Source of the DNA: a candidate division WOR-3 bacterium
Lineage (GTDB): Bacteria > Hydrothermota > Tepidihabitantia > Tepidihabitantales > Tepidihabitantaceae
DNA: 64,000 bases
NCBI GenBank assembly: GCA_013177935.1
Contig: JABLXZ010000001.1
Span: 636,191-700,190 of the forward strand
Direction of reading: 5' to 3'
Positions 1,099-64,000 of the stretch are shown in pieces. The first letter of the stretch is position 1. Each line of letters begins with the position of its first letter. The position numbers and the translations under genes were made by a program. The notes beneath the pieces were generated by a model. It did no database searches and was not told where the DNA came from. It was given only the letters and a program-made list of their open reading frames with translations.

Positions 1099-2073
1099 AT
1101 GGTAATGGTTTTTTGCGAACAGCGTGAAGGCAGTCTAAAGAAAGTTGCTTTTGAAGCACTGCTTGCCGGTTTCAAAATTGCCGAAAAGAAGCAGGATGAA
1201 CTCACCGCGGTCGTTTTAGGGAAAAACATCTCAACCCTCGCTCAGGAAGTTGTTAAATTCGGCGTTAATAAAGTTATCACCGTTGATGACCCGACACTCG
1301 AATTTTACACCCCGGACGGCTATGGCAGTGTCCTGGAGAGACTGGCGCGCGAACACAAACCGTATGCAATCATCCTCAGCGCCACCGCGCTAGGTAAAGA
1401 CCTCGCCGCCACCATCGCTTCCCGGTTGGAAACCGCGCTGTTATCAGACTGTACCGCAATTGACTTTGATGAAGAGGGAAATGTCGTTGCCACTCGCCCA
1501 ATCTATGCCGGTAAAGCACTCGCGACCGTTAAAGCGCCGGGAGCACAACCGCTGGTCATAAGCCTGCGACCCCGGGCGGTAGGCGCTCAAGGAGAACTAA
1601 ACCGCGGCGGGCAGATTGTCGCCGCCCAGTTAACACCCGAAGAGTTGCGAATGAAAGTTGCGGAAATCGTCAAAACAGTTACTAAAACGGTAGAACTGAC
1701 CGAAGCCGACATCGTCGTGTCCGGTGGTCGGGGAATGAAAGCACCGGAAAACTACGCCCTGCTTGAAGAACTGGCAGCGGTTATTGGCGCGGCTGTGGGC
1801 GCCTCCCGTGCTGCGGTCGATGCCGGCTGGCGCGACCACCAATTCCAAGTAGGACAGACCGGCAAAGTTGTAGCACCTTCACTCTATATAGCCTGCGGTA
1901 TTTCCGGTGCCATCCAGCACCTGGTTGGAATGATTAACTCAAAATGCATCGTGGCAATCAACAAAGACCCTGAGGCGAATATCTTTAAGGTTGCCGATTA
2001 TGGAATTGTCGGTGACCTGTTTCAGGTTGTCCCTCTTCTCACTGAAGAGTTCAAAAAAATCAAGCAGGGATAG
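1099..2073 (+). CDS. etfA: Electron transfer flavoprotein alpha subunit
   Basis: 324 residues, the normal EtfA length. The N-terminal half is the adenine-nucleotide alpha-hydrolase-like ETF domain. The C-terminal ~125 residues are the FAD domain, with [32 protein letters not shown] and [11 protein letters not shown], the usual FAD-contacting segments. EtfA pairs with EtfB and takes electrons from acyl-CoA dehydrogenases or, in bifurcating systems, splits them between ferredoxin and a quinone or flavoprotein. Start chosen from AGGAGG at 1087-1092. It heads a run of five same-strand genes ending in an acyl-CoA dehydrogenase. Oddly, no etfB lies beside it or anywhere else in the window, although etfBA are usually adjacent. 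Confidence 0.93.
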
Positions 2074-2079
2074 ACCGTT

Positions 2080-2529
2080 ATGCCCAACACCGTCCAGACC
2101 GATGTTCAGAAGGTAAAACGCGTTCTCGAAATAATTCTCGACACCTCGGCTTCTCCGGTACCGCGCTGCCGGCTGCTCTCTTCTGGATTTGGACCTTCCC
2201 ACACATTAAAGGTCAAGGAAAACATCACCGGTACCCGCGCCTGTCTGGGTTGTGGGAATTGTGTTGACATCTGCTCGCTTTTGGCACGAGAACCCGCCCG
2301 ATTAAAACGCACCGCCCAGCGCACCAGCCTCGCCCTCGAAACAATGGTCGGCTCGGACTGCGACCGCTGTTATCAGTGTGTCTTATCCTGCCCCCAGGTT
2401 GATACTACAATAAAACATTACATCGTCAGAGAAAAGGCGATTGAACAGATGAGACATCTGCTGTCGCACCTGGCGCCCCGCGATGACTATTATCTTGACG
2501 AGTTTTATCAGGAGGCAATCAATGGCTGA
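2080..2529 (+). CDS. Two-cluster 4Fe-4S protein, HdrC/ferredoxin-like
   Basis: 149 residues, 6 nt after etfA. Two CX2CX2CX3C motifs are visible: CLGCGNCVDICS (around residue 52) and CDRCYQCVLSCP (around residue 94), enough for two [4Fe-4S] clusters. The first motif ends in Cys-Ser instead of the usual Cys-Pro. The helical flanks resemble HdrC or the ferredoxin domains of fumarate reductase iron-sulfur subunits more than a small bacterial ferredoxin. Likely a soluble electron carrier subunit between the ETF and the flavoprotein complex encoded downstream; that role is inferred from context. Its last 8 nt overlap the next gene, so the two are probably translationally coupled. Confidence 0.75.
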   Translation: MPNTVQTDVQKVKRVLEIILDTSASPVPRCRLLSSGFGPSHTLKVKENITGTRACLGCGNCVDICSLLAREPARLKRTAQRTSLALETMVGSDCDRCYQCVLSCPQVDTTIKHYIVREKAIEQMRHLLSHLAPRDDYYLDEFYQEAING

Positions 2530-3205
2530 AAATATGATTGACATCTATATTATGGGTGAACATCATCGGGTTCCCGATTCATTGACTATCCTTCAAGCGC
2601 TTGAGTACGCGGGCTATCGGCTTATTCGGGGTGTTGGCTGCCGGGGTGGTTTTTGCGGCGCCTGTGCCACTGTGTATCGCGTTGTCGGAGATTACCACTT
2701 AAAATTCGCCCTTGCCTGCCAGACCAAAGTTGAACCCAATATGCAACTGGCGATGATTCCTTATTTCCCGGCGCATCAGCCGCGCTATCGCCTTTCCGAA
2801 CTCAAAGGTACCGCCCAGGAGGTGCTCGATATCTACCCCGAAATGTTAACCTGCTACGGTTGTAACACCTGCACCAAATCCTGCCCCCAGGAAATTGATG
2901 TCCTGGGCTATGTTTCGGCGATTGTCCGGGGTGATATTCCGCTTGCTGCCGACATCTCGTTTGACTGTATTATGTGCGGACTGTGTGTCAGTCGCTGCCC
3001 GGCCGAACTGGTAAAACATCACGCCGCCTTACTCTGCCGGCGCATCTACGGCAAATTTCTCGCCCCCCGCTCCGAACATCTGAAACAACGGATTCAAGAA
3101 ATCAAATCGGGCAAATTTAATGCTGCCATCGCTGAACTTAAAAATATGCCCCAGGCAGAACTTAAAAAACTTTACGCTAACCGGGATATAGAACCCGAGG
3201 AGTAA
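2522..3205 (+). CDS. FrdB/SdhB-like iron-sulfur subunit
   Basis: 227 residues from the ATG at 2522, which has AGGAGG at 2510-2515; a longer in-frame start at 2483 lacks a site. The N-terminal 2Fe-2S domain has CRGGFCGACA plus a later ACQT cysteine. Two 4Fe-4S motifs follow: CYGCNTCTKSCP (around residue 118) and CIMCGLCVSRCP (around residue 156). This order of plant-type 2Fe-2S then two [4Fe-4S] is that of succinate dehydrogenase/fumarate reductase or thiol:fumarate reductase iron-sulfur subunits. No membrane anchor gene is nearby, so the complex is probably soluble. It should pass electrons to or from the flavoprotein that begins 5 nt downstream. Confidence 0.85.
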   Translation: MAENMIDIYIMGEHHRVPDSLTILQALEYAGYRLIRGVGCRGGFCGACATVYRVVGDYHLKFALACQTKVEPNMQLAMIPYFPAHQPRYRLSELKGTAQEVLDIYPEMLTCYGCNTCTKSCPQEIDVLGYVSAIVRGDIPLAADISFDCIMCGLCVSRCPAELVKHHAALLCRRIYGKFLAPRSEHLKQRIQEIKSGKFNAAIAELKNMPQAELKKLYANRDIEPEE

Positions 3206-3209
3206 ACAA

Positions 3210-4841
3210 ATGGCTTATCCATCTCCGTTGAATGAACTTGCCACCCGCGTGGCAGAAACAAGACCGGACCGCCTAAATCAAGCCTTTCCCCGCCTGACCG
3301 CCGAGGAAAAAGATAAACTGCTCCATGAATACCATCCGGACTACCGTGCCGACACATTCTCCACCCTTCGGGTTGGACCGAACGCCGGCGACCGCACCCC
3401 GCGCGAACTTGCCCTCCTCCTTGAGGGCGAAAGCCTGTTAAAAGGAACAAACATCGCGCTTGACCATCCAGACTACGACTGCGATGTCCTGGTAATTGGT
3501 GGCGGTGGTGCTGGTTGCGCCGCCGCGCTCATCGCCGAGGACCTTGGAGCAAAAGTACTTGTGGCAACAAAACTCCGTCTTGGTGACGCCAACACAATGA
3601 TGGCGCAAGGTGGAATTCAAGCCGCCGACAAAGAAAACGACTCGCCGGCAATCCACTATCTCGATGTGCTGGGAGGTGGACATTTTGCCAATATCCCGGA
3701 ACTGGTGGAAACGCTCGTTACCGATGCGCCGGAAGCAATTCAATGGCTTGAAGAGCTCGGGGTAATGTTTGATAAAAACCCGGACGGGTCAATGAAAACA
3801 ATTCACGGTGGTGGCACATCCCGCAAACGGATGCACACCGCTCGCGACTACACCGGTGCGGAAATTATGCGTACCCTCCGCGATGAGGTGAAAAGCCGGC
3901 CGCAGATTACCGTCCTGGAATTCTCGCCGGCGGTTGAACTTCTCACCGACTCAACCGGTGCAACCACCGGCGCGGTTCTGTTAAACCTGAACCTCAGTGG
4001 CAATGCCTTTTCCCGCGATTACCACTACACGGTAGTTCGGGCAAAAACGGTCATTATCGCCACCGGCGGCAGCGGTCGACTTCACTATCAGGGATTCCCA
4101 ACCTCCAACCATTACGGTGCGACCGGTGACGGTTTAGTTCTTGCCTATCGTGCTGGTGCCCGACTGGCATTTATCGATACGATGCAGTACCACCCCACCG
4201 GTGTTGCTTATCCCCAGCAAATCATTGGCCAGCTGGTGACCGAAAAGGTCCGGAGTCTGGGCGCCCAGCTACTTAACATTGACGGACAGCAGTTCATATA
4301 CCCGCTGGAAACCCGGGATGTGGTTGCCTCAGCGATAATCCGGGAATGTCAGCAAGGCAAAGGAGTTGTAACACCCGGCAACATCTCTGGTGTCTGGCTT
4401 GACACGCCAATGATTGAAATTTTGCGCGGTCCAGGCACGGTTAAAAAAGAACTGCCCGCAATGGTTCGTCAATTTGCCCGCTTTGGTATTGAACTGGACA
4501 AAGAACCGATTCTCGTATATCCGACTCTACACTATCAGAATGGTGGGGTCGCAATTGACCCTGATTGCCGAACCAATGTTCCATTTCTGTTTGTTGCCGG
4601 TGAGGCTTCGGGCGGTGTACACGGCCGCAACCGTCTGATGGGCAACTCACTACTAGATGTCATCGTGTTCGGACGCCGGGCTGGTGCGGCTGCTGCTCAG
4701 AACGCCCGGGCAAGAGGTTCTAACCTAGAACTCACTCTCAAACATCTCGAAAAATGGGACCAGGAGTTGCAAAAACAGCGCATCGCTCCGGCAACAAAAT
4801 CGCCCTTGATTCTGCCCGATTATACAAAAAAGGAGGCTTGA
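3210..4841 (+). CDS. FrdA/NadB-family flavoprotein oxidoreductase
   Basis: 543 residues. An ~88-residue N-terminal extension precedes the FAD Rossmann motif VIGGGGAGCAAALIA. Other family blocks are MAQGGIQAA, HGGGTSRKRMHTARDYTG, ATGGSGRLH, TGDGLVLAYRAGA, MQYHPTG and VAGEASGGVHGRNRLMG. They place it in the fumarate reductase/succinate dehydrogenase/L-aspartate oxidase superfamily. The residue before AQGGI is not the His that binds FAD covalently in membrane SdhA/FrdA (it reads NTMMAQGG), so FAD is probably non-covalent, as in NadB. With the FrdB-like gene just upstream, a soluble fumarate reductase or another enoate reductase is plausible; the substrate is unknown. Start ATG at 3210. Confidence 0.82.
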   Translation: MAYPSPLNELATRVAETRPDRLNQAFPRLTAEEKDKLLHEYHPDYRADTFSTLRVGPNAGDRTPRELALLLEGESLLKGTNIALDHPDYDCDVLVIGGGGAGCAAALIAEDLGAKVLVATKLRLGDANTMMAQGGIQAADKENDSPAIHYLDVLGGGHFANIPELVETLVTDAPEAIQWLEELGVMFDKNPDGSMKTIHGGGTSRKRMHTARDYTGAEIMRTLRDEVKSRPQITVLEFSPAVELLTDSTGATTGAVLLNLNLSGNAFSRDYHYTVVRAKTVIIATGGSGRLHYQGFPTSNHYGATGDGLVLAYRAGARLAFIDTMQYHPTGVAYPQQIIGQLVTEKVRSLGAQLLNIDGQQFIYPLETRDVVASAIIRECQQGKGVVTPGNISGVWLDTPMIEILRGPGTVKKELPAMVRQFARFGIELDKEPILVYPTLHYQNGGVAIDPDCRTNVPFLFVAGEASGGVHGRNRLMGNSLLDVIVFGRRAGAAAAQNARARGSNLELTLKHLEKWDQELQKQRIAPATKSPLILPDYTKKEA

Positions 4842-5924
4842 TTGGACTTCTCTTTTTCCGAAGATGCCGAAATGATTCGGCAAACGGTTCATGAGTTTGT
4901 CCGGCGTGACCTCCTGCCTGTGGAACCAAAATTTCTCAATGTCCGCACCCGAGAAGAACGAGAAGCCATTACCCGGGAAGCCACTCAAAAAATAAAAGAA
5001 ATGGGACTGTACAGTGCTGGCGTGCCCGAGCAGTTTGGAGGTGGTGGTCTGGGTTTAATTGAAACCTGCCTGATCGCGGAAGAGCTGTCAAAAACTATCA
5101 TACCGGTTGATTGGGGTGATTTTACCCCGATTCTTTACGAATGCCCGGACAGTCTAAAAGCGGATTATCTTTTGCCGGTTGTTGCGGGTGAAAAGAGTTA
5201 TGCCCTTGCCTTCCGGGAGCCGGAACATTTTTCCAATCCCGATGATATGTCCGCCACCGCCCTGCCGGATGGTGACAATTACATTCTCAACGGTGTTAAA
5301 CTACTCTCCCGTCCCGACTTTGACTTCTGCCTCGTCTTTGCCCGAGCGCCCGAGGGTGTTGCCTGTTTCATCGTTGATAACAACACCCCCGGCACCGAAG
5401 TCGACTTTGGCGTTACTCCTGCCCGGTTGCTCCTGTCAGAATGTCGTATCGGCTCCGACAAACTCCTTGGCAAACCTGGTGCAGCGCTCTATCTCGGCTA
5501 TAAATGGTTTCCGCTGTCGCGCATCTCCCGGAGTGCCGCAATCCTCGGGGTCTGCAGCCGCATACTTGAAACATCAGCACAGTATGTCCGGGATTGGAAA
5601 TCGATGAACGAACCAATCTCTACCCGCAAAGAGTTCCAGCGCAGCCTTAGCGCAATGGCGGCAAACATCGAAGCCCTGCGCTGGCTGGTTTATCGCACCG
5701 CCTGGCTCGCCACCAATTCCAGCAGCATTAACTTTGACACAATGATCTTAAAGCTCTATGCCCACAATATCCTCGAGGATACGGTTAACACCTCGGTGCG
5801 CATTCATGGCGGCACAATACCTCCCACCCAGCACTGGCTCGTCAAGGCATCACAGGAAGGCGAAGCCCTTGATATGCTCCGGCTGGCGGTAAGCAATGAG
5901 GTTATAAACCGCTACACAACCTGA
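4842..5924 (+). CDS. Acyl-CoA dehydrogenase family protein
   Basis: 360 residues, starting at TTG 4842 immediately after the previous stop, with AGGAGG at 4831-4836. N-terminal helical domain (SEDAEMIRQTVHEFV), middle beta domain and C-terminal helical domain ending in a QEGEALDMLRLA segment that aligns with the usual YEGT-EI-R block, so the catalytic Glu appears to be present. The family oxidises acyl-CoA to enoyl-CoA and passes electrons to ETF. As last gene of the etfA operon it could supply electrons to EtfA and the FrdAB-like pair, or work in reverse. At 360 residues it is slightly shorter than typical (~380), and the middle domain is divergent. Confidence 0.82.
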   Translation: MDFSFSEDAEMIRQTVHEFVRRDLLPVEPKFLNVRTREEREAITREATQKIKEMGLYSAGVPEQFGGGGLGLIETCLIAEELSKTIIPVDWGDFTPILYECPDSLKADYLLPVVAGEKSYALAFREPEHFSNPDDMSATALPDGDNYILNGVKLLSRPDFDFCLVFARAPEGVACFIVDNNTPGTEVDFGVTPARLLLSECRIGSDKLLGKPGAALYLGYKWFPLSRISRSAAILGVCSRILETSAQYVRDWKSMNEPISTRKEFQRSLSAMAANIEALRWLVYRTAWLATNSSSINFDTMILKLYAHNILEDTVNTSVRIHGGTIPPTQHWLVKASQEGEALDMLRLAVSNEVINRYTT

Positions 5925-12525: not shown

Positions 12526-13044
12526 ATGCTCAACCCCAGAATCATCGCCCTGCTCAATCTTGCCCAGACCGCAGAAAAGGAGAGTTTGGAGCGCTATCTG
12601 GAGTTTGCCTTCCAAACCAAAGACCCGGGTGGAAAAGATATGTTCATCCGGCTGGCAATCGATGAGTACCACCACTGGCAGTTGCTCGAAACCCAACAGC
12701 GCTCCCTGAATGAAAACGGAACATTTTCCCGGGTTGAAATCCCGTGTTCTCTTCTTGAGCAACTCATCCCCCACCTTTCCGAAAAAGAACTGCTCATCCG
12801 GGGCAAAGAAAAACAGAACGAACTTAACGCCTTACAAACCGCGCTTCAGTTAGAAAGATCGGCGCGTGATTTTTACCACCAAGCCCTTGAGCAAACAACA
12901 GCAGTTGAACTCCAGCAATTACTTTTACGCCTCGAGCAGATGGAGCAGGCTCATCTTGAATTGATTCAAGCCGAAATCGACCACATCCAGAAAACCGGTT
13001 TCTGGTTCTGGTTTGCCGAGTTTACCCTTGAAGGAAACCCTTAA
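12526..13044 (+). CDS. Rubrerythrin-like diiron protein without rubredoxin domain
   Basis: 172 residues forming a four-helix ferritin-like bundle. Candidate diiron ligands are Glu in EKESLERY, ExxH in AIDEYHHWQ, Glu in QLERSARDFY and ExxH in MEQAHLELIQ, which is the rubrerythrin/ferritin-like spacing. No CxxC rubredoxin module follows. Such proteins remove peroxide or store iron in anaerobes. Start set by the promoter at 12492-12519. The stop interlocks with the convergent saccharopine dehydrogenase stop over 13041-13044. Confidence 0.8.
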   Translation: MLNPRIIALLNLAQTAEKESLERYLEFAFQTKDPGGKDMFIRLAIDEYHHWQLLETQQRSLNENGTFSRVEIPCSLLEQLIPHLSEKELLIRGKEKQNELNALQTALQLERSARDFYHQALEQTTAVELQQLLLRLEQMEQAHLELIQAEIDHIQKTGFWFWFAEFTLEGNP

Positions 13045-14378
13045 CCAATCTTTCTTACCCGCTCCTGAAACTTGATACCCAGTTTTTCCAGTTCACTAAG
13101 CACCGGTTGATAAATCTCGGGCACAACCGGAATCTGCACACCGGTAAGCCGCAGTTGACCCTCAAGAGCCATCTTCACCGCAATCGCCGCCGGTAAACTT
13201 ACCGTCCGCGCCATCGCCGTATCACCATTGGGCTGACCAAAATCTATCAAAGTGGACTCAATAAACTCACCCGGCTTATCAGGATATGCGACTTCAAACT
13301 GGTGCTGCAGCACAATCATATCCTTTTCGCCCGGTTTATAGGACATCCGTTCCAGCATCGCCTTGGCAAGAATATCAAGCGTGGAACCGCGCTCAAGCCC
13401 GATTGGTTCATCGCTGAAAAGCCCGAGCCAATCCAATCGTTTCATTACGGGACTGTCAAGGCTCAACCCCAGTTTCTTTGCCACATCCTGCCGCAAATCG
13501 CCTTCTTCCGGCACAAAATCTCTTAACCACTGCGCGTAAGTCAGCCTCTTCAGGTCGCTCCACTCCCGGTCGTCTTTGAGTAATCCAAGGTTAACAAGCG
13601 CCTGCATCGTATCACACCAGCCCGTATTCCGGAATGTCGCCCGCAGCATCGTCTTTATTCCCTTAAGCCCGTAAAGTTCAATGTAGGGCAAAGAGTTACG
13701 ATTGGGATAAGCCTCAAGCTCTCCCAGCCCTTCAACCACCGTCTTCCAGTAAGAAGAAAAAAGCTGGCTGCTGGGAATAAAAACCTCTTTGCCATCCTTT
13801 AAAAAACGGGCATCGTTACGTCCTGCCATTAACACCCCCTTAGGGCTCCAGGAAAACTTGTAGCCCAGAGGGTTGTCATTGGCATCCGGTGCCGGCAGAC
13901 CGCCACAGGAAGAGACAAAACTTACGACCTTGCCCCCTTCGTTTTTAACCCGGTCGATAATCGCCATCGCCGACATATGGTCAATTCCCGGGTCCAGTCC
14001 GATTTCGTTTAAGAAAAGTAAGCCGGCTTTTGCGGCAGGCTCTGAGAACTGGCGCATCGCATCGCCAACATAGGAGGTCGTAACTAAATGTTTTTTCAGG
14101 TCCAGACAGTGCCTTGCGACTTTTGCATGATAAATATATGGCAAAAGGCTTACCACGACATCAGCATCGGCCATCAATCGGTGTAACTCAGGCTCGTCAT
14201 CCACCAAGAGTGGCACCGCCTTGCCCTTCGGATGCCCGGCAATCAAATCCTGCGCCTTGCTTACGGTCCGGGTCGCCACCACGGTTTCAACACCAGGCAA
14301 CTCCAATAGATAACGGACCATCGGTCTGGAAACAAGACCGGCACCAAGGATTAATACACGCTTATTGCTCTTTGCCAT
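13041..14378 (-). CDS. Saccharopine dehydrogenase (glutamate-forming type)
   Basis: 445 residues. An N-terminal NAD(P)-binding Rossmann motif (VLILGAGLVSRPMVRYL) is followed by the saccharopine dehydrogenase core, with SLLPYIYHAKVARHCL, SYVGDAMRQ and LNEIGLDPGIDHMSAM. A C-terminal catalytic/dimerisation domain completes the family length. It should oxidise saccharopine to aminoadipate semialdehyde and glutamate. It lies 4 nt after the lysine-ketoglutarate reductase-like gene, so the two genes reproduce the LKR then SDH order of eukaryotic AASS as separate proteins. Likely lysine catabolism, or the reverse. Confidence 0.88.
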   Translation of the reverse strand: MAKSNKRVLILGAGLVSRPMVRYLLELPGVETVVATRTVSKAQDLIAGHPKGKAVPLLVDDEPELHRLMADADVVVSLLPYIYHAKVARHCLDLKKHLVTTSYVGDAMRQFSEPAAKAGLLFLNEIGLDPGIDHMSAMAIIDRVKNEGGKVVSFVSSCGGLPAPDANDNPLGYKFSWSPKGVLMAGRNDARFLKDGKEVFIPSSQLFSSYWKTVVEGLGELEAYPNRNSLPYIELYGLKGIKTMLRATFRNTGWCDTMQALVNLGLLKDDREWSDLKRLTYAQWLRDFVPEEGDLRQDVAKKLGLSLDSPVMKRLDWLGLFSDEPIGLERGSTLDILAKAMLERMSYKPGEKDMIVLQHQFEVAYPDKPGEFIESTLIDFGQPNGDTAMARTVSLPAAIAVKMALEGQLRLTGVQIPVVPEIYQPVLSELEKLGIKFQERVRKIG

Positions 14379-14382
14379 AAAA

Positions 14383-15699
14383 TTATCCCCTTTCTTTCAC
14401 AAATTCCTCAAGATACTTATAGTTCGGTGTTAACACCCCTTTATGGAGAATCAGTGCCCGTTGTAAAGGTCCTGGCAACACCAGCCGTTCTAACTCAACC
14501 TGAAAATCGGTACTGGCAAGTACCGGAATAAATGGCAGCAATGCTTCACCAAACTCCCGGGAAGCATCCGACGCCAGTTCGCAGGGCAGATTGTCAACCG
14601 CCATTATTACAATCCCCTGCCCCTCTAAACCATCGGTGACCATTCCGGTCAAAGGGTCGCAAACAAAAAATGGCGCACCCGGGTCGGTGGTTTTTACCGT
14701 GATTTCAATTGAACCCTCAATGTCACAGGAGATATCACCGATAATCAGCAATTTGAATCGGTCGGGCTGAAAGTTTTCCCTCAAATACTCTTTTGTCACC
14801 AGCCGTGGATAACGACTGTCCCAGTAAATACAATTGACCAGAACCGAAAGATAGGGTAGGTACTGTTCAAATTTTGCCCGATACCGCTCGGGATGATTGA
14901 AATATTGATTCAGGTCAAACTTCTCCTCCGGGTTTTTCGGCTCAACCGTATCCTCCTCTTTGAAAACTACCTGATAAATCTGGTCTTTTTTCCCTTCTTT
15001 GAGCAAAGCCGGTAAATCCGCCGGAGTCACTAATGTTGTTCCCAGTGCCATTAAAATCTCACCCGCACCGCGGGCAACATTACCGTAGCCGGTAACGCCA
15101 ATAACCAGTGGCACCAGCTCTTCTGGTAAACCATTGCGCCGCACCGCTTCTCCAATTTGGGCAATCGCCTCCTTTGCCTTATCAACCCGGCGGTACTCGT
15201 GCGCCAGTTTTGCCTCCTGAAAAGGCGTTTCCCAGCCCAGGACCTTCAACCTTTGACCCAAACCGGCAATGGTATCTATCATTCCGGCAATCCCGGCAAA
15301 TCGGCCAAAGAAAACCAGCCTTTTCCCCTGCTCATCGGTAATCTTTTCATAATCCAGCAACGAACAACCCAACTCCATCATTCGCTTCAACATCTTCATA
15401 TTGTGGGGCTGACCCTTAATCACATGGGCGAAAAACATATAAGTTCCCTGCGGTCGGAAAAAATTGACGGGCATCTCTTTGACACCGAGCACAATCGGAC
15501 AATCGGCAACATCCTCCCGCACCTCTGCTCCCGCCTGCCGAAACTCCTCATCTGAGAAAATCCGAATCGGCGAACTCTGAACCGCAAACCTCAGCCCGTG
15601 TTCAACAATCAACTGGCGCAGCTGGTCCGGTGTCAACGGCACGCGCCGCTCCCAGATGTTTTTATCTTCTCGCCTGATACCGATTACATTCCTTGTCAT
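14383..15699 (-). CDS. Lysine-ketoglutarate reductase-like (AASS N-terminal half)
   Basis: 438 residues. The N-terminus GIRREDKNIWERRVPLTP is the alanine dehydrogenase/transhydrogenase N-terminal signature also found in LKR. FFAHVIKGQPHNMKMLK and DYEKITDEQGKRLVFFGR match the AASS LKR domain. VIGVTGYGNVARGAGEIL is the nucleotide-binding glycine loop, and DISCDIEGSIE is a C-terminal LKR/AlaDH block. It should condense lysine with 2-oxoglutarate to saccharopine. First gene of a two-gene operon with saccharopine dehydrogenase. The promoter at 15712-15739 leaves a 12 nt gap to the ATG. An unspecialised AlaDH/PNT-family role is the main alternative. Confidence 0.85.
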   Translation of the reverse strand: MTRNVIGIRREDKNIWERRVPLTPDQLRQLIVEHGLRFAVQSSPIRIFSDEEFRQAGAEVREDVADCPIVLGVKEMPVNFFRPQGTYMFFAHVIKGQPHNMKMLKRMMELGCSLLDYEKITDEQGKRLVFFGRFAGIAGMIDTIAGLGQRLKVLGWETPFQEAKLAHEYRRVDKAKEAIAQIGEAVRRNGLPEELVPLVIGVTGYGNVARGAGEILMALGTTLVTPADLPALLKEGKKDQIYQVVFKEEDTVEPKNPEEKFDLNQYFNHPERYRAKFEQYLPYLSVLVNCIYWDSRYPRLVTKEYLRENFQPDRFKLLIIGDISCDIEGSIEITVKTTDPGAPFFVCDPLTGMVTDGLEGQGIVIMAVDNLPCELASDASREFGEALLPFIPVLASTDFQVELERLVLPGPLQRALILHKGVLTPNYKYLEEFVKERG

Positions 15700-55177: not shown

Positions 55178-56497
55178 TTATGGGAAAATTCCGCGTTCCT
55201 TATACACCTTCTCCAATCGAGTTAGGGCAACAATGTACGCTGCGGTACGCCAGTCTACGCCGTACTTCTCTGCTGCCTCTTTTACCCGATGGTACGCCGG
55301 AACTATCTTCTTGTAAAGTTTGCAATCAACCTCTTGCAACTCCCAGTACTCGCTACGCTTATTCTGCAACCATTCAAAATAGGAAACAATCACACCGCCC
55401 GAGTTACAGAGAATGTCCGGTAACACATCAATGCCCCGTTTTGCCAGTATTGCATCACCTTCAGGATTGGTTGGGCCATTTGCTCCTTCGGCAACCAGTT
55501 TCACATTGAGCATCGGCGCAGTCTCTTCCGTAATCTGGTTTTCGAGAGCCGCGGGAATGAATATGTCTGCCTTTGTACTTAGGAACTCGCTGTGGCTAAT
55601 TGGCTTTGCCTTGGGATAACCTTTGACACCACCGTGCTTTTGAACATAGCCGGTCAAATCGTCCGGGTCAATACCATCGGGATTGGCAATTGATCCGGTC
55701 ACATCTTCAACCGCCAGCAACTTCGAGCCAAGCGGTTTCATCAGCCGTGCCGCCCAGGAACCAACATTGCCAAACCCCTGAACAATATATGTTGCACCGT
55801 TCAGGTCGAAATTGTGGTCTTTTGCCCATTCCCGGATAAGAAAAACTACTCCCTGACCGGTCGCCTTATCCCGTCCGATACTACCGCCCGATTCAATCGG
55901 TTTCCCGGTCACAACATGCAGACAGCGCTGACGCTCATATGCCGGCATCATCGACTGGTAGGTATCCAGAATCCATGCCATGATTTGCGGATTGGTATTG
56001 ACATCCGGTGCCGGTATATCATATTCCGGTCCGATTGTATTCCCCAGAGCAAATGCAAAGCGTCGCGTAATCCGCTCCAGCTCAGAGAAAGAGTACTGAG
56101 ACGGGTCCAGTTGAATGCCACCCTTGGCACCACCGAACGGAATGTTGACAATTGCCGACTTCCAGGTCATCCAAGTCGCCAGTGCCCGAACCTCATCGAT
56201 ATCCACTGCCGGGTGAAATCGTAAGCCACCCTTGAATGGACCAAGGGCGTTGTTATGTTGAACCCGGTAACCGGTAAACACCTCAATCCGACCGTCATCC
56301 ATCTTGACCGGGAAATGAACAACGATTTCGTTCATCGTCGTCCCGAGAATCTTGCGCACCCCGGGGTCAAGATTCATTATGTCGGCGGCACGATTGAACT
56401 GGGTGACCACATCCTCATATACACTCCGGCGTTTCTGATTGCCGACCGATTTTGGCAGCATCGCCCGTTTACTGCGGACTGTCGTAATCGTCTTCAT
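55178..56497 (-). CDS. Glutamate dehydrogenase (Glu/Leu/Phe/Val family)
   Basis: 439 residues. Catalytic block [33 protein letters not shown] and the DVNTNPQIMAWILDTY segment are typical of NAD-type bacterial and archaeal GDHs. The C-terminal Rossmann motif is VQGFGNVGSWAARLM. It interconverts glutamate with 2-oxoglutarate and ammonia. AGGAGG precedes the ATG. It lies 28 nt after a Cys-rich gene behind a sigma-54-type promoter, which fits nitrogen control. The GDH near the right edge belongs to a different subfamily. Confidence 0.93.
   Translation of the reverse strand: MKTITTVRSKRAMLPKSVGNQKRRSVYEDVVTQFNRAADIMNLDPGVRKILGTTMNEIVVHFPVKMDDGRIEVFTGYRVQHNNALGPFKGGLRFHPAVDIDEVRALATWMTWKSAIVNIPFGGAKGGIQLDPSQYSFSELERITRRFAFALGNTIGPEYDIPAPDVNTNPQIMAWILDTYQSMMPAYERQRCLHVVTGKPIESGGSIGRDKATGQGVVFLIREWAKDHNFDLNGATYIVQGFGNVGSWAARLMKPLGSKLLAVEDVTGSIANPDGIDPDDLTGYVQKHGGVKGYPKAKPISHSEFLSTKADIFIPAALENQITEETAPMLNVKLVAEGANGPTNPEGDAILAKRGIDVLPDILCNSGGVIVSYFEWLQNKRSEYWELQEVDCKLYKKIVPAYHRVKEAAEKYGVDWRTAAYIVALTRLEKVYKERGIFP

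Positions 56498-62767: not shown

Positions 62768-64000
<1,233 letters not shown>

Follow-up and report, generated by a model that had tools for sequence, protein, structure and literature searches.

The locus considered here raises the question of whether a bacterium of candidate division WOR-3 has a two-gene counterpart of eukaryotic alpha-aminoadipic semialdehyde synthase (AASS) and, if so, in which direction the two enzymes would work. The window, by which we mean the whole 64,000-nucleotide stretch of DNA analysed (contig JABLXZ010000001.1, assembly GCA_013177935.1), comes from a genome of 1.96 Mb in 5 contigs that is 98.6% complete. It contains two adjacent genes for a putative lysine-ketoglutarate reductase (LKR) and a putative saccharopine dehydrogenase (SDH), and we think it probable that this pair degrades lysine via saccharopine. 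The pair consists of the following elements.

14383–15699, minus strand: first gene, encoding the putative LKR (AASS/LOR type, 438 aa)
14379–14382, minus strand: spacer TTTT (4 nt) between the LKR stop and the SDH start
13041–14378, minus strand: second gene, encoding the putative SDH (glutamate-forming, 445 aa)

Identity of the two gene products

The LKR frame ends with TAA at 14385–14383, TTTT follows, and the SDH frame opens with ATG at 14378. The open reading frames and their stop and start positions thus bear out the 4-nt gap and the AASS-like gene order described in a first-pass annotation made from the sequence alone. While the LKR-then-SDH order is that of the domains of human AASS, the latter is one protein; no single bifunctional polypeptide is encoded here, the two frames being split by the TAA and 4 nt. 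A purine-rich AAGGGG within the LKR end, just before the spacer, possibly serves SDH as a ribosome-binding site, and the two genes would presumably be co-transcribed.

Compared with sequences from the PDB, LKR scored 271 bits against the LOR domain of human AASS (35.2% identity), 62.9 against yeast Lys1 and at most 27.4 against alanine dehydrogenases, and a profile built from 26 LKR relatives gave 401, 97 and 44 bits, respectively. An AlphaFold model of LKR (pLDDT 93.1, pTM 0.90) superposed on LOR (8e8u) with Z 46.9 and a root-mean-square deviation (rmsd) of 2.5 over 424 residues, on Lys1 (2qrj) with Z 34.0 and rmsd 3.1 over 352 residues, and on the best member of the alanine-dehydrogenase family with Z 28.8 and rmsd 2.8 over 322 residues; the Foldseek ranking of the model agreed (LOR, then Lys1, then the alanine-dehydrogenase family). 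Although the top Pfam model for LKR was AlaDh_PNT_N (87 bits) and no model specific to LKR gave a match, these comparisons leave next to no probability that the first gene encodes an alanine dehydrogenase, the outcome that the first-pass annotation had named as grounds for rejecting its assignment. Fungal Lys1 belongs to the same superfamily and has aligned active-site residues, but LKR is far closer to LOR. Sequence scores and modelled structure together indicate that LKR is of the AASS type, neither Lys1 nor an alanine dehydrogenase, as the earlier annotation had held with regard to Lys1.

LKR residues E17, R19, K74, E75, H92, E118 and R127 align with Lys1 E16, R18, K77, E78, H96, E122 and R131, of which we take E16, R18, E78, E122 and R131 to have roles at the active site. 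All seven LKR positions are invariant in the 122 prokaryotic rows compared (three of them are duplicates, and four incomplete sequences had been removed before), so the loss of substrate residues that the annotation had named as its second ground for rejection did not appear; human LOR has Arg where LKR has E75. In Lys1, K77 and H96 are the catalytic Lys and His according to a title cited in PMC9490328, which in the part used here also describes the human LOR structure with its nicotinamide site and NADPH residues. The Ala-Gly at human LOR 154–155, in the nicotinamide site, is kept as A and G in 122/122 rows. From these comparisons LKR is predicted to make saccharopine from lysine and 2-oxoglutarate. 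There is little probability that the pair applies the same chemistry to another amino acid or an opine-like substrate: the function of the WOR-3 members is predicted only, and relatives of the same fold act on alanine or nucleotides, but the conservation of the Lys1-aligned positions in every row argues against this reading, as does the strict pairing with SDH described below.

SDH scored 331.7 bits against yeast Lys9 (40.0% identity), 318.1 against Magnaporthe Lys9 (40.3%) and 295.0 against the SDH of human AASS (38.2%), with the Pfam domains Sacchrp_dh_C at 270 bits and Sacchrp_dh_NADP at 77 bits. Residues E125, G127, D129–G131, D133, H134, N169, P170, Y173, K174, W177, R227, R246 and R250 are conserved in all 104 rows of the SDH alignment. 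Taken as sequence scores, the values for LKR and SDH exclude chance. Judged by the same scores, SDH appears slightly nearer to fungal Lys9 than to human SDH, as do 72 of the 104 prokaryotic SDHs when yeast Lys9 is the reference (32 do not). After the second strand, SDH has A-T-R-T, resembling the A-C-R-T of Lys9 and unlike the G-S-D-M of the human enzyme (T-R-T versus S-D-M), and an R at this position of the Rossmann fold would indicate NADP. The description of the pair as a two-gene AASS is therefore right in part: it suits LKR, and less so SDH, which combines about 40% identity to Lys9 and a Lys9-type motif (A-[CT]-R-T) with a marginal preference for Lys9 over human SDH.

The R of the SDH motif is present in 86/104 rows, and an Asp stands one position earlier in 13/104. 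These 13 rows comprise two from the family of the source genome (loci L042 and L053) and 11 that form a Bacteroidota clade; in L042 and L053, which read D-K-V and D-I-E, the Asp replaces the S/T ahead of the R of the NADP motif. The Asp variants are likely to be cofactor switches among close relatives. In LKR, the residue opposite R267 of the human NADPH site (S266, R267) is E in the HMMER register and K in that of MAFFT, and a basic residue occurs in this region in 108/122 rows, with the register ambiguous. We dropped an attempt to read direction from the cofactor motifs: SDH looks NADP-type, but the reading of the LKR site changes with the alignment used, and cofactors were therefore not used to judge direction.

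Linkage and distribution of LKR and SDH

LKR matches were obtained in 54 of 147 genomes of the phylum; three were weak (E 8e-6 or worse, covering the first third only), leaving 51. SDH follows LKR in 37 of the 45 WOR-3 loci fetched; contig ends truncate four of the other eight, and the last four (genomes G018, G019, G121 and G131) have SDH on another contig. Full-type SDH, defined as scoring roughly 200 bits or higher with Pfam and taken to include truncated copies from G019 and G112 as well as the stub of G013, occurs in 47/51 genomes with LKR versus 3/96 without; in the 93 good genomes the figures are 33/33 versus 1/60 (Fisher p ~2e-24, a value that ignores kinship, related genomes not being independent). 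LKR and SDH thus strictly co-occur in the phylum, and are kept together even when unlinked. Shorter, lower-scoring PF16653 proteins were also seen in many WOR-3 genomes. An apparent LKR-SDH fusion in G056 (L062) was rejected: an 888-aa open frame was printed, but a TGA and a few bases part the same-frame LKR and SDH.

The genes beside the pair vary. In the window, SDH lies tail-to-tail, with a 4-base overlap, with a rubrerythrin-like gene, and a divergent gene for an RRM protein lies upstream of LKR. Elsewhere, where one representative per cluster was scanned, the neighbours include OTCase, a Na/Pi transporter, a phosphate-butyryltransferase-like protein, LolCE and others. Loci L064, L067 and L070 (G048, G046 and G049) have LKR-SDH followed by genes that cluster as two FAD oxidoreductases, of which only the L064 copies were scanned.

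A scan of genome contigs yielded at least 581 confirmed relatives, of which the best 80 named loci were examined, these being the ones nearest the query, with plants and Ruegeria left out. The best 80 of at least 581 belong to Bacteroidota, Thermoplasmatota and other archaea, Chloroflexota, Acidobacteriota, Aminicenantes, Bipolaricaulota, Neomarinimicrobiota, Cloacimonadota, Planctomycetota, Myxococcota and others, so that the statement that such a pair is uncommon in bacteria is not borne out. In 73/80 loci LKR has SDH downstream of it on its own strand, in 70 of them no more than 420 nt away; four of the seven loci that have none are on contigs that end within about 500 bases, and the remaining three (L135, L147 and L156) extend for about 6 kb without SDH. 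No LKR-SDH fusion was seen in these 80 loci. In 6/80 the surroundings of the pair include a GABA-transaminase-like aminotransferase (only the copy in L151 was scanned).

In a tree of the LKR sequences, human LOR sat on a single long branch apart from the prokaryotic rows, and omitting Lys1 and alanine dehydrogenase changed which sequences stood next to it; the alanine-dehydrogenase outgroup, L079, was so labelled from its length and a weak score. The origin of eukaryotic AASS is not resolved by this sequence tree.

Bacterial LKR and SDH, those of Ruegeria (Silicibacter) pomeroyi, were reportedly described by Serrano et al. in 2012, a study cited in PMC9490328, PMC11169572 and PMC8426250, and the pair belongs to this already known and widespread kind. 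Of the results, the broad distribution is the more useful one. In the open literature we found no paper that, by its title, deals with the saccharopine pathway in uncultured phyla, and none that combines saccharopine with WOR-3. The pathway, mostly described from eukaryotes, is hereby extended to WOR-3, to many largely uncultured phyla and to some archaea, and stand-alone relatives of the LOR of human AASS, a drug target, become available for structural work. The find alone settles no open question.

Direction of the pathway

The first-pass annotation had left breakdown and synthesis side by side; we favour breakdown. LKR would join lysine, presumably imported, to 2-oxoglutarate and then reduce the product to saccharopine, which SDH would oxidise to glutamate and 2-aminoadipate 6-semialdehyde (AASA). 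A glutamate dehydrogenase would convert the glutamate to 2-oxoglutarate, the net outcome being removal of the epsilon-amino group of lysine, and AASA would be oxidised to aminoadipate, presumably by a general aldehyde dehydrogenase, of which the genome has three. Activity, direction, cofactors and all steps past AASA are inferred. Two proteins of the glutamate-dehydrogenase family, as claimed in the annotation, are encoded inside the window:

62768–63973, minus strand: glutamate dehydrogenase (PF00208, 294 bits; NCBIfam NADP-specific glutamate dehydrogenase, 695 bits)
55178–56497, minus strand: second glutamate-dehydrogenase-family protein (PF00208, 247 bits)

The lysine-related genes of the source genome carry the argument for breakdown. 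It has dapA, a gene of lysine and diaminopimelate (DAP) synthesis (344 bits, cut-off 206), but DAP decarboxylase, LysA, was not found: its only PF02784 protein scored 271 bits against lysine/ornithine decarboxylase and 239 against human ornithine decarboxylase, versus at most 144 against DAP decarboxylases. Homocitrate synthase was not found either, the lone PF00682 match (67 bits) lying in a 643-aa frame that is probably a carboxylase subunit. With neither homocitrate synthase nor LysA found, the genome shows no known route to AASA or to lysine; in the absence of a complete known lysine route and of a known AASA source, breakdown of imported lysine is the most likely function of the pair.

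The same gaps bear on the opposite direction, in which, as in fungi, SDH would combine AASA and glutamate into saccharopine with NADPH and LKR would oxidise this to lysine, replacing DAP decarboxylase. This reading could draw on the missing LysA, which TIGR01048 also failed to detect in two other genomes that have LKR and SDH (G119 and G120), on the Lys9-type NADP motif of SDH, and on dapA, which lies on the same strand upstream of LKR by 849, 1453 and 2962 bases (0.8–3.0 kb) in G105, G106 and G120 (L046, L045 and L043). Nevertheless, a PF00682 scan of 18 genomes of the family detected no homocitrate synthase (17 had one partial hit each, of at most 74 bits), leaving no known source of AASA, and LKR and LysA are unassociated in the 93 good genomes. 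LysA was present there in 10/33 genomes with LKR versus 11, 18 or 20/60 without (p = 0.20, 1.0 and 0.82) under strict, wide and widest classes, which were defined after the scores were known, starting from scores of at least 260 bits and then admitting a group near 225 bits and two split or partial hits (G089 and G050). A general role of LKR as a replacement for LysA was rejected on these counts, and we regard synthesis in the fungal direction as very unlikely. For those WOR-3 bacteria that are without DAP decarboxylase, we give a slim chance to a variant in which the pair runs to lysine with AASA from a homocitrate-free source, perhaps linked to dapA; we know of no homocitrate-free bacterial lysine route through saccharopine. 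Genomes at least 92% complete that have dapA without a LysA of the TIGR01048 class are the source genome (G000), G111, G107–G109, G119 and G120, and the last two have no match to TIGR01048 or PF02784 at all.

The source genome has no dedicated AASA or piperideine-6-carboxylate (P6C) dehydrogenase over the curated cut-off (best 389 bits, cut-off 730), so the check that the first-pass annotation had proposed turned out negative. It has three aldehyde dehydrogenases, at G000 C1:277159, C2:141180 and C2:463009: one is a P5C dehydrogenase (802 bits, cut-off 648), and the other two are nearest to alpha-ketoglutarate-semialdehyde dehydrogenase and lactaldehyde dehydrogenase, both below cut-off. A general aldehyde dehydrogenase could still serve AASA oxidation instead. 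Across the 147 genomes, only three (G046, G048 and G049), all of one genus and all with LKR and SDH, exceed the P6C dehydrogenase cut-off, with the gene on contigs other than those of LKR-SDH.

The lack of a dedicated enzyme would also suit an osmolyte role, in which the same reactions start from lysine and AASA either cyclises to P6C and gives pipecolate or is converted to aminoadipate, as a compatible solute. Such a role has been reported in marine bacteria and plants, according to the parts of PMC7253579, PMC8426250 and PMC4334477 drawn on here. Among the genes scanned near the pair, by contrast, no salt-related neighbours were recognised (a pipecolate-forming reductase was not searched for), and we consider an osmolyte role unlikely.

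Several observations weigh against breakdown and should be set beside the evidence for it. Besides the missing dedicated AASA dehydrogenase, SDH has an NADP-type motif like biosynthetic Lys9 and unlike catabolic human SDH; in three relatives a dapA gene precedes LKR, which would fit a biosynthetic connection; the neighbours of the pair elsewhere are mostly unrelated housekeeping genes; and the co-occurrence counts are subject to phylogenetic non-independence.

Comparison with Ruegeria pomeroyi and further genes

The source genome encodes one more saccharopine-dehydrogenase-like protein, outside the pair (L and C numbers are our locus and contig labels):

L002:1471–2598 (G000 C5:29353–30066): second saccharopine-dehydrogenase-like protein, 376 aa, nearest 3abi (PH1688), 139 bits

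We take 3abi to be an L-lysine 6-dehydrogenase; SDH of the window scored only 33 bits against it. In Ruegeria pomeroyi, lysine is catabolised both via saccharopine and via lysine dehydrogenase, with several of the genes experimentally verified, as stated in the part of PMC4334477 consulted. Ruegeria (Silicibacter) pomeroyi is alike in that its genome combines separate saccharopine-pathway genes with one of lysine-dehydrogenase type, and by this analogy the proposed breakdown pathway matches that of R. pomeroyi. A difference is that R. pomeroyi, according to the same part of PMC4334477, has a dedicated AASA dehydrogenase, SPO0235, whereas the source genome has none over the cut-off; the sequences were not compared.

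Two further groups of genes were noted. The PF02784 protein (L095:7577–9895, G000 C3) adjoins a homospermidine-biosynthesis (deoxyhypusine-synthase-like) gene (NF001980, 524 bits, cut-off 450), and judging from these matches the lysine/ornithine-decarboxylase-like and homospermidine genes are perhaps a polyamine unit. Positions 1099–5924 of the window hold a cluster of genes for ETF-alpha-like, iron-sulphur, FrdA/NadB-like flavoprotein and acyl-CoA-dehydrogenase-like proteins, the last of which is similar to acyl-CoA dehydrogenases in general (at most 113 bits) and scored only 80 bits against glutaryl-CoA dehydrogenase.

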